Assembly: GCA_900299255.1 (NCBI GenBank)
Contig: OMJB01000020.1
Span: 1 to 34,700, forward strand
Length of the DNA: 34,700 nt
Direction: 5' to 3'
Source of the DNA: Sphingobacteriales bacterium
GTDB taxonomy: Bacteria > Bacteroidota > Bacteroidia > Chitinophagales > Chitinophagaceae
Position 1 is the stretch's first letter. Each line of letters begins with the position of its first letter. The position numbers were made by a program, and so were the translations under genes. Below the pieces are notes generated by a model. It had not been told where the DNA came from, did no database searches, and worked only from the letters and a program-made list of their open reading frames with translations. Positions 10,231 through 12,758 of the stretch are shown here, piece after piece.

Positions 10231-11631
10231 GTGAGAGCATTCCTGATAATATTATCCTTTGTTTGTACCTGTATAAATGTACATGCACAGGTGAATATTA
10301 TTACAACAATAGCTGGTAAAGCCCTTGTGCCAGCGAGCGATAGCGGTGATGGAGGACCAGCAACTGGCGCAAGATTTTATGGTCCGGCAAGTTTGTGCAT
10401 TGACAATTTCAATAACATCTATATAGGAGATGGTTACAATTGTAAAATAAAGAAAATTGACAATGCGTCGAGAAATATTACTACTATTGCCGGGAAAAAA
10501 AGTAGCGGATATTCTGGTGATGGTGGACCCGCTACGAATGCAGAACTATTTTTGCCTACTGGAGTAAAAATTGACACACTAGGAAATATCTATTTTGCTG
10601 ACGAAGGCAATAATCGGATTAGAAAAATTGATTGGCAAACAGGAATTATTTCGACGATAGCAGGTAGTGGACCAACGGGGGTTGGAAGTGCCGATTCAAC
10701 AGGTGACGGCGGACCGGCAACTAATGCCCAAATCGGCATACCTACTGGATTATTTTTGGATAAGTCAGGAAACATTTACATTGCAGACTATGGCAATTGC
10801 AAGGTAAGGAAAATTGATGCAAGTACCGGAGTCATCACAACCTTTGCGGGCAAAGGAAGCAAGCATTATTTAAGCGGAAATGTTGGGTACTCGGGGGATG
10901 GCGGCTTAGCAATAGATGCTGAGTTCTCGGGTCCAGTGAATTTATGCCTCGATAAAAGTGACAACCTAATCATTTGTGATCAGTGGAACCACGCAGTGAG
11001 AAAAGTTGACGCAATATTCCACACAATTACTACAATTGCAGGCAACGGCACCTCTGGATACTTTGGCGATGGTGGGTTGGCGATTCATGCTAAATTATCA
11101 CAACCGGCTGGGTGTATCGTTGACAAAGAGAATAATATCTATATCGCAGAATTTGGGAATGGTGTTGTACGTAAAATTGATGCGGTAACGGGTATTATTA
11201 CAACAGTAGCAGGCAATGGTATCTGGGGGTATTCGGGTGACGGAGGCCCGGCAACTGCCGCTGAATTAACTTGTACCGACCTGGTATTTGATTCTTACGG
11301 CTGCATGATTGTTGCGGATTATGGCAGCAATACAATCCGCAAAGTATACAACCCCCAGCTTGCAGTAAACACCACCAAAACCAGCAACGAACTATCTGTT
11401 TACCCCAATCCTGCTAATGATGTGCTGCAAGTGCATTATCGCTTCCCCGGCCATGAATTTGCCGAGTTTCAGATAACAGATGTAACCGGCAGAGTGCTTA
11501 CCACCAGTACCCTTTTATCCGGCAAGCTATCTGAGCAAATAGATATCCGGCACCTGCCTCTGGGGCTGTATCTGTATAGGGTGTTGCAGGATCATCAGCC
11601 TATTGCCACCGGCAAGTTCATCAAAGAATAA
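10231..11631 (+). CDS. Secreted six-blade NHL-repeat protein with a type IX sorting domain
   Basis: A 466-residue exported protein starting at GTG. Residues 1-20 are a signal peptide ending HAQ. Six NHL-type repeats of about 55 residues follow. Each has the pattern TxAGxG...GDGGxAxxA, a family-like L/I-D...NIYIAD strand and xxVRKID; together they would close a six-bladed beta-propeller. From about residue 389 comes a T9SS type A sorting domain (LSVYPNPAND start, VTGRVL, LPLGLYLYRV, ending GKFIKE). This sends the protein across the outer membrane through the gliding/Por secretion machinery. NHL propellers usually bind protein, carbohydrate or RNA; no catalytic site is visible and the ligand is unknown. 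Codon use of the propeller part seems more AT-rich than that of the sorting domain. Confidence 0.88.
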   Translation: MRAFLIILSFVCTCINVHAQVNIITTIAGKALVPASDSGDGGPATGARFYGPASLCIDNFNNIYIGDGYNCKIKKIDNASRNITTIAGKKSSGYSGDGGPATNAELFLPTGVKIDTLGNIYFADEGNNRIRKIDWQTGIISTIAGSGPTGVGSADSTGDGGPATNAQIGIPTGLFLDKSGNIYIADYGNCKVRKIDASTGVITTFAGKGSKHYLSGNVGYSGDGGLAIDAEFSGPVNLCLDKSDNLIICDQWNHAVRKVDAIFHTITTIAGNGTSGYFGDGGLAIHAKLSQPAGCIVDKENNIYIAEFGNGVVRKIDAVTGIITTVAGNGIWGYSGDGGPATAAELTCTDLVFDSYGCMIVADYGSNTIRKVYNPQLAVNTTKTSNELSVYPNPANDVLQVHYRFPGHEFAEFQITDVTGRVLTTSTLLSGKLSEQIDIRHLPLGLYLYRVLQDHQPIATGKFIKE

Positions 11632-11682
11632 TCATCCGCCCAAAACACAAAATTCACCTAAAATCAGCCGGGCAAAAAAATC

Positions 11683-11698
11683 TGGTATGGTTTTTGAA
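11683..11698 (+). promoter_or_regulatory. Sigma54-like promoter
   Basis: TGGTATGGTTTTTGAA resembles the -24/-12 promoter (TGGCAC-N5-TTGCW) recognised by RpoN. The GG at 11684-11685 is separated by exactly 10 bases from the -12 G at 11696, followed by A instead of the usual C. No protein-coding gene follows on the + strand, only a structured interval ending in a terminator. Confidence 0.5.
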
Positions 11699-11708
11699 CT
11701 GTATTAAT

Positions 11709-11807
11709 TGCATTTCAGGGTTTAGTGTGTGTTTGATGGAAATTTATGATGAACCGAATGCCATAAATTAAATTTCCACAAAAGGTGCCTTTTCAGGCAC
11801 CTTTTTT
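11709..11807 (+). ncRNA. Candidate structured small RNA
   Basis: A transcript from the sigma54-like promoter would start near 11709 and end at the T-run at 11807, about 100 nt. It contains a perfect 10-bp stem, TGGAAATTTA (11737-11746) with TAAATTTCCA (11769-11778), closing a 22-base loop. One base later comes the terminator hairpin. No open frame of useful size fits. Promoter, internal stem and terminator in series fit a small RNA gene, but no known RNA family is recognised. An alternative is that this is only the 3' region of the NHL gene. Confidence 0.4.
11780..11807. terminator. Bidirectional intrinsic terminator
   Basis: GGTGCC (11784-11789) pairs with GGCACC (11796-11801), extended by four A-T pairs, around a TTTTCA loop. 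On the + strand it ends in six T. On the minus strand it ends in four T and lies 36 bases after the stop of the beta-barrel gene. It can serve both directions. Confidence 0.85.
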
Positions 11808-11841
11808 AGTTCCGGTTAGCAGGCCTTGCCTGTAAGAAAGA

Positions 11842-12561
11842 TTATAAACCGGTAAGGCACAAACCCAGCGCAAGCGGTGTAATCGTTGGCCCTGCTTTGT
11901 CTTTAAATACATTGGTGATGTTGTACGATCCAAACAGGCTGAAATTGCCCCAGCCGATGCGGGCTGTTGCTGCAAAATTCCACGGAGCCAGGTAGCGCTT
12001 GGTATCTGTCTTGTATTTCACACTGTTCCCGTTCACTGATGTTACTGATTTTGTATGCGCACCCAGCAGCACTCCCACTTCTACGCCTAGAGCCGCTTTA
12101 AAACCTTTGTTGCGGTTGGCAGAGTTGCCAAAATAACGCAGCTCAAATGGCGCCTGCAGGTATGTGGTAGTAAATTTGTTTCTCTTGTAGTTATTGGTAT
12201 CAGCAATAAACCGCACTGTTGACCCCAGCGTGCCGGTATCCGTAAAGCGCATTACCTGGTTGTTGAGGTATATAACATTTACATTCACACCCAGCCCTGC
12301 AGCAAAGCTCAGGTGGGTTTTCTTGATTGGGAAATCGTAGCACAGATAACCATTGAAGGCATACCCGAAGCTCTTTATTTTAACACTGTCCGGCTTGGTG
12401 ATCCAGGTGTTGTACAAAAAATCAATCATTACAAAATCACGCGAAGGCCTCGACAATGCCGACGGAACAGCATTGGCGTTCACTTTTTCAGTAGTTTCCT
12501 GTGCATGCACGGTAGTTAACGATACTATTAAGAGAGCCATTGAGGCAAGAATCCTGCGCAT
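11842..12561 (-). CDS. Outer-membrane beta-barrel protein
   Basis: A 239-residue protein with a signal peptide (residues 1-20, ending HAQ). The rest is built of alternating hydrophobic and polar strands typical of small Bacteroidota porin-like barrels (PorT/OmpW-like size). Segments such as AFNGYLCYDFP, FELRYFG and IGWGNFSLFGSYNITNVF read as amphipathic beta-strands, and the last residues LALGLCLTGL form a final strand without the usual terminal aromatic. A TATATTTG -7 element lies upstream on the minus strand at 12579-12586. It shares the bidirectional terminator with the converging NHL/small-RNA side. No ligand or enzymatic role can be proposed. Confidence 0.75.
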   Translation of the reverse strand: MRRILASMALLIVSLTTVHAQETTEKVNANAVPSALSRPSRDFVMIDFLYNTWITKPDSVKIKSFGYAFNGYLCYDFPIKKTHLSFAAGLGVNVNVIYLNNQVMRFTDTGTLGSTVRFIADTNNYKRNKFTTTYLQAPFELRYFGNSANRNKGFKAALGVEVGVLLGAHTKSVTSVNGNSVKYKTDTKRYLAPWNFAATARIGWGNFSLFGSYNITNVFKDKAGPTITPLALGLCLTGL

Positions 12562-12713
12562 AAATCTGTATTAGGGCGCAAATATAATGGCTGCGAAACG
12601 GAAAATTTGTTAAAAATGCAATACAATCATAAAAAGTAGCTGCATTGTGTGCTTTCGGGCCATCTCCACCGGCTATTACCCGCCTTCCGCAGCACAAATC
12701 CCCTCAAAAAGAA

Positions 12714-12738
12714 AAACTCCCCGGTATGCGGGGAGTTT
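12714..12738 (-). terminator. Terminator of the susC-susD-lipoprotein operon
   Basis: A perfect 10-bp stem pairs 12714-12723 with 12729-12738 around a 5-base loop. On the minus strand it is followed by TTTTTCTTTTT. It lies just downstream of the lipoprotein stop at 12759. The remainder of the 12562-12758 gap shows nothing else clear. Confidence 0.9.
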
Positions 12739-12758
12739 CCTTATAAAAAGTATTACTG

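Follow-up and report, generated by a model that had tools for sequence, protein, structure and literature searches.

A conserved sigma54-type candidate small RNA gene with a predicted pseudoknot in Chitinophagaceae

Organization of the intergenic stretch

The window, by which we mean the whole stretch of DNA that was analysed (34.7 kb), contains a 210-nt intergenic stretch (11632–11841) flanked on one side by an NHL-repeat/T9SS-sorting gene (10231–11631, plus strand) and on the other by a convergent outer-membrane beta-barrel gene (PF13568; 11842–12561, minus strand), which lies outside the RNA described below and whose homologs adjoin that RNA in 13 of the 17 relatives first aligned. The initial annotation had proposed that a sigma54-like promoter here drives a short structured RNA ending in a terminator, with no plus-strand gene behind it, and the elements that it named are in place. 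The promoter-like element (11683–11698, plus strand) has TGG at 11683–11685, of which 11684–11685 are the -24 GG, and G at 11696 and A at 11697 at positions -13/-12, giving the form GG-N10-GA. A perfect 10-bp inverted repeat joins 11737–11746 to 11769–11778 and is followed by an intrinsic terminator (11780–11807) with arms at 11780–11790 and 11795–11805 and T's to 11807; the next gene is the barrel gene on the minus strand. If the start is placed 12 nt past the -12 position and the end at the terminator, the predicted small RNA is about 99 nt long (11709–11807, plus strand). Beyond the initial annotation we recognized two further elements, namely a helix, here called helix A, which joins the first letters of the RNA (11710–11715) to 11756–11761 inside the loop of the inverted repeat (helix B), and loop 1 (11718–11736), which carries a GU run with letters invariant in our alignments and is the proposed effector. 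An additional perfect 8-bp inverted repeat (11741–11748 with 11762–11769) allows a shifted pairing within helix B. Elsewhere in the window, a 12-pair terminator-like hairpin on the minus strand (12712–12740) lies between the barrel gene and an Ig-like gene, downstream of a minus-strand Ig-like/SusD-like/TonB-receptor run.

Among 2,000 dinucleotide shuffles of the 210-nt stretch, an inverted repeat of at least 10 occurred in 40, a terminator, scored by a criterion of our own, in none, and both together in none. The fold of the region has a z-score of -2.5, and 2 of 200 shuffles folded equally well. An automated terminator scan of the window did not list the hairpin at 11780–11805, probably because the stem rule of the scan pairs A's with the T run. 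By themselves the inverted repeat and the fold are just mildly unusual, and the case for an RNA rests on conservation.

Distribution and independence from neighboring genes

By BLASTN with the 210-nt stretch as query, 17 of 24 genomes of the same genus (own genome excluded) proved to contain the block, each match lying within part of 11660–11814. In the alignment the block is a single unit in which GGYAYRGTTTTTGAAC is separated by about nine unconstrained letters from TTGCATTTCC, and this by a short unconstrained stretch from GTGTGTGTTTGATGGAAA; the two stems and the terminator follow. The 19th row of this alignment, a 24-bp match from a genome of another family (L026 in G027), lacks the RNA and was not taken as a member. 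Using a covariance model we identified the promoter-to-terminator block in two genera of the family: in the window's genus 28 of 35 genomes have it, 26 scoring at least 85.9 bits and two divergent ones about 53, and in the second genus 9 of 11 do. Credible copies number one per genome, and the named records that carry them are titled as Flavipsychrobacter, Taibaiella, Chitinophagaceae, Bacteroidia, or Bacteroidetes MAGs. A pattern scan of the genome contigs gave 49 loci, of which 23 score at least 77 bits with the model while the other 26 have nothing above 22 bits. The alignment used for the structural counts below holds 34 sequences, 26 from the first genus and 8 from the second, and five of these loci (L040, L042, L045, L057, L061) came from a pattern that demanded the GU core.

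Seven of the 35 genus genomes have no credible match, and three of these are at least 90% complete (G012, G019, G434). In G434, which was not counted as a 29th genome, the weak matches are terminators without promoter and GU run (L156, L157). Outside the two genera no credible match was found among sampled genomes, 394 from the family and 298 from the order; because these large groups were sampled and searched with stricter filters, distant members may be missed. In the family sample, 17 of the 394 genomes were true by score, and another 22 had weaker matches, none above 41 bits; in the order sample no genome but the own one reached an E value of 1e-5. The inspection of weak matches covered 13 of these 22 (L095–L107) together with L156 and L157; a further weak match, of 36 bits, is in G256. 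The 13 are likewise terminators that lack promoter and GU run, and we set them aside.

The genes around the RNA vary. The NHL gene stands upstream only in the window, and in L093 an NHL-type gene lies downstream. A family of 240–260 aa proteins, barrel-like by eye, is encoded upstream in 23 of 33 relatives from both genera. A plus-strand ORF follows the RNA at 50 nt in L017 and at 278 nt in L093. Since the NHL gene (plus strand) ends at 11631, the convergent gene ends at 11842, and the terminator is nearly symmetric and could also serve the barrel gene, the intergenic signals might be explained without a separate RNA, as the 3'UTR of the NHL gene with its terminator or as a bidirectional terminator between convergent genes. 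This explanation is quite improbable. The gene upstream is RuvB on the minus strand in the closest relative (L009) and another minus-strand gene in L012, L013, L024, L025, L061, and L089, and in these 7 of 33 relatives promoter, pseudoknot, and terminator are all still kept; the RNA there is no 3'UTR, given the opposite strand of the gene upstream. ORFs were called mechanically for this count, and L085, with a doubtful minus-strand ORF upstream, was left out of the seven. Nor would a terminator alone account for a promoter that is conserved and a helix A that covaries. A tie of the RNA to the NHL gene fails, because relatives have another or an opposite-strand gene upstream.

No conserved reading frame was found across the 34 aligned members. 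An 11-codon ORF begins at an ATG at 11736–11738, and ATGGAA recurs in 28 of the 34 members, as a short peptide gene would have it; we rejected such a gene as extremely improbable because length and residues of the ORF vary among the members. It has three codons in 20 of them and 10 to more than 20 codons in eight, with mostly unrelated residues that agree only between the window and L009; ATGGAA is missing in six, and the ATG overlaps helix B. With a putative promoter and terminator of its own, no coding potential, and conservation apart from its neighbors, the unit has the marks of an independent intergenic small RNA gene, and we regard an independent sigma54-type structured RNA gene as highly likely. 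Computation supports both the gene and its conservation, and the small-RNA idea of the initial annotation gains from it accordingly, with promoter, both stems, and terminator conserved with compensatory changes.

Predicted pseudoknot and promoter type

Because helix A reaches into the loop of helix B, the two would cross and form an H-type pseudoknot. The structure was read by eye from one alignment row and then counted in the alignment. Helix A is paired in 97.0% of cells (34 genomes), and six of its eight pairs show two-sided changes. There are 33 cells with two-sided changes compared with 8.0 in shuffles, and the covariation score is 0.441 compared with 0.241; for neither measure did any of 500 shuffles reach the observed value, and cell counts take related sequences many times. 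Two of the five measures fall within the shuffles, namely the number of two-sided pairs (6 vs. 4.1, reached in 32 of 500) and of further pair types (11 vs. 11.1, reached in 378 of 500). When the partner strand was slid as a control, pairing fell to 24–54%. The switches include C-G to U-A (nine sequences), A-U to G-C or C-G (six), and U-A to C-G (eight). Mapped onto a tree of 13 genomes built from rpoN, an independent sequence, four helix A pairs remained standard through 1, 1, 2, and 7 changes, a fifth was unchanged throughout, and the other three changed to non-standard pairs as well. The window retains 6 bp of this helix, two of its eight pairs being broken, where most relatives have eight, and the duplex has -4.8 kcal/mol compared with a mean of -11.4.

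Helix B is paired in 94.1% of cells in the 34 sequences, and its own covariation support is thin because the arms are mostly invariant, with two-sided change in 1 of 11 pairs. The terminator is paired in 98.4% of cells, and 9 of its 10 pairs have two-sided changes. The initial annotation had named conservation of the stems in close relatives as the point on which its idea could fall; both stems are kept there, and compensatory changes are seen. In two divergent sequences (L154 from G014 and L155 from G007), the arms of helix B appear by eye to be rebuilt in other pairing letters, with helix A and the GU run kept. A pseudoknot with these two crossing helices is thus supported by computation. 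Because GGAAAU/AUUUCC recurs, a swapped fold of two hairpins is also possible and is pairable in 90.6% of cells; it showed no covariation above shuffles, 62 of 500 of which reach its score, and a conserved switch between pseudoknot and two hairpins is therefore unsupported.

Turning to the promoter, the pattern TGGYAYNNNNTTTGM, chosen after the site was seen, matches exactly only at this site in the window, and with one mismatch it matches eight times where 7.8 are expected. All 17 relatives in the first alignment, which were picked by BLAST of the whole stretch, have GGYAYRRTWTTTGRA. In all 18 loci of that alignment the -24 GG stands at a fixed spacing from the G at -13, and GG, A, T, and TTTG are invariant. 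Extending the comparison to 37 loci from distinct genomes, one locus each, we find GG-N10-G in all 37, a count that itself required GG-N10-G near the GU run. The initial annotation had pointed out that A replaces C at -12; A proves to be the family's usual letter, since -13/-12 reads GA in 29 of the 37 loci, GG in five, GC in two, and GT in one. GC at -13/-12 is the sigma54 norm, and both loci that have it belong to the second genus, where L091 reads GGCACGGTTTTTGCT and L085 reads GGCATGATGTTTGCA. Both promoters are close to the sigma54 consensus TGGCACN5-7TTGCT given in PMC12316311.

Another sigma factor, either the primary one or an ECF factor with GAAC at -35, might be supposed to read the site, and of the 28 loci from the window's genus, 20 do have GAAC after the T run. 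We consider this improbable: GAAC is found in 1 of 9 second-genus loci, whereas GG-YAY-N4-TTTG is found in 37 of 37 (GG-N10-G being required), the sequences of L091 and L085 point to sigma54, and the primary -7 box TAnnTTTG (PMC7366714; PMC9723704) recurs, by our reading, at no fixed place. A sigma54 promoter is the best reading of the site, a promoter type that the computations support, and we infer that the RNA is transcribed and that RpoN controls it.

We searched rpoN in 40 genomes, own genome included, and found it in 38, the other two being 78% and 82% complete. The own genome has two full rpoN genes (L076 and L077, at G000:C48:25311-25784 and G000:C75:4393-4863) with frames of 509 and 496 aa, and a second copy recurs in several relatives, not in every carrier of the RNA. 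Across 35 genomes of the genus, TGGYAYRNTTTTTGM has 155 sites, 20 of them in G136, compared with 34 for the reversed pattern. Among the 150 sites listed, 91 end in GC and 59 in GA, and by hand count 11 of the latter are the present RNA. Viewing 51 sites, 20 of them hand-chosen, we found 31 intergenic by mechanical ORF calls, with three being the RNA itself and two duplicates. GA and GC are also exchanged before 82%-identical orthologs that are NadA-like by eye, with TGGTATGATTTTTGA in L320 and TGGTATGATTTTTGC in L204. Several of the viewed sites precede ORFs that by eye have signal peptides. Sites of this kind (L204 and L320; L317–L319; L215 and L323; L314 and L326) precede genes that by eye are NadA-like and SelU-like, NHL-repeat-like genes, and other secreted-protein-like genes, which hints at a surface-centered RpoN regulon in this genus.

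A TGTTAA box starts 28–29 nt before the -24 GG in 15 of 37 loci (L014–L023, L040, L045, L057, L092, L093), and the window is without it. Anywhere in about 140 nt and on either strand, TGTTAA occurs in 25 of 36 loci compared with 4.4 in shuffles. The box is possibly an activator or UP-type site, and we take it only as a lead.

The GU loop and relation to known regulators

The first alignment (18 sequences) has 17 consecutive invariant letters (11725–11741), the first 12 of which lie in loop 1. In the 34 sequences, GTGTGT (11725–11730) is the only unbroken invariant run left. The longer core GTGTGTTTGATGGAA occurs in 24 of 28 first-genus loci and in none of the nine second-genus loci, in which the 3' half of the loop differs. 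An invariant GU run points to a seed or a protein site. Exact CAAACACACAC has 105 occurrences in 35 genomes, 25 of which are the RNA gene itself, compared with 83 for the reversed control (hand-summed). With up to two mismatches, CCATCAAACACACAC has 127 matches in 10 genomes compared with 82 for the control; the RNA gene itself accounts for 10 of the 127. Among the 60 of 117 non-self sites that we fetched from 5 of the 10 genomes, with one G010 site and the five other genomes left out, no upstream target common to the genomes was found. Four of the 60 are at most 15 nt upstream of an ORF (L270, L278, L301, L306), each in a single genome, and in the sole protein pair with a common CCATCAAACACACAC site the site is inside the coding region. 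A conserved target near a start codon, as would mark a trans base-pairing small RNA, did not emerge from the search with CCATCAAACACACAC at up to two mismatches. As to a protein partner, the own genome has one RRM protein gene, and a search of it for Hfq gave no match. RbpB, an RRM protein of Bacteroides, binds small RNAs preferentially in single-stranded regions (PMC11697453).

These results bear on a structured RNA that titrates a protein or senses a ligand and does not pair with mRNAs, with GGAAAU/AUUUCC perhaps allowing a pseudoknot/two-hairpin switch. We regard this as a real though minority possibility, and it overlaps with the protein-site half of the explanation that we prefer. In its favor, a large part of the sequence is structured, the GU run could plausibly be a site for an RRM protein, the swapped pairing can still form in the large majority of cells, and the loop-complementarity searches yielded no conserved mRNA target; against it, the swapped pairing does not covary above shuffles and no such protein or ligand is known.

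Searched against Rfam 15 at the gathering cut-off, the window gave no match, and neither did 20 loci including relatives. The 27 sub-threshold matches in the intergenic stretch (to E 10) were read as chance, the best being MicX on the opposite strand (E 0.024, 19.2 bits vs. 75). Small RNAs that depend on sigma54 are known in Proteobacteria, namely Qrr in Vibrio, GlmY in Escherichia coli, and CrcZ in Pseudomonas. They resemble the present RNA as small RNAs behind a -24/-12 promoter, but they are proteobacterial and linked to Hfq or RapZ, and we know of none with a pseudoknot of the present layout. SAM-II and preQ1-type riboswitches are H-type pseudoknots with the same crossing topology of two helices; in contrast to them, the present RNA continues into a separate terminator, has no following same-strand gene in the window, and has no Rfam match.

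Within the same phylum, Rfp36 of Flavobacterium psychrophilum is a putative regulatory RNA that Table 2A of PMC9723704 places under the sigma54-type SM4 promoters. It too is a small transcript with a -24/-12 promoter, its start site has been mapped (PMC9723704), and it belongs to another order, the comparison being by description and not by sequence or structure. GibS and FopS of Bacteroides are likewise Bacteroidota small RNAs, with a conserved single-stranded seed and the RRM partner RbpB (PMC11697453). FopS, as described there, has a single-stranded 5' seed and a terminator, canonical primary-sigma promoters, and 14 copies (PMC11697453), whereas the present RNA is single copy, pseudoknotted, and of sigma54 type; the Rfam GibS model scores 17.9 on it, the cut-off being 115. 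Among the titles and abstracts listed by searches of open-access papers, none reported the present RNA or described a regulatory RNA in Chitinophagaceae. The RNA is probably a new family of a known kind, the sigma54-controlled small RNA, with an unusual pseudoknot body, Rfp36 having been compared by description only.

Taken as a whole, the explanation that we favor and consider likely is a trans-acting, RpoN-controlled pseudoknot small RNA whose GU loop is the effector. Positions 11709–11807 would be an independent gene for a regulatory RNA of about 100 nt that acts in trans, transcribed from 11683–11698 by RNA polymerase with sigma54 (RpoN) and an enhancer-binding protein and ending at its own terminator. 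The H-type pseudoknot would tie up the 5' end of the RNA and hold out the GU-rich loop, which would be the working part, either pairing with CA-rich sites in mRNAs or being bound by an RRM protein. We infer action in trans and the role of the loop as effector; that the loop acts in trans as a seed or protein site is, in our estimate, about evenly balanced. Tentatively, and as an unlikely case, the RNA may in this Hfq-less host use its GU-repeat loop to act as decoy or partner of an RRM protein and so connect RpoN signals with a surface-protein network that works post-transcriptionally; to our knowledge, no sigma54-controlled pseudoknot riboregulator acting as an RRM decoy or partner is known in Bacteroidota. 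As a conserved, single-copy pseudoknot RNA of sigma54 type, it offers a defined starting point for learning how signals from RpoN could reach mRNAs in Chitinophagaceae, and its GU loop is a concrete candidate site for binding of an RRM protein or pairing with mRNAs.
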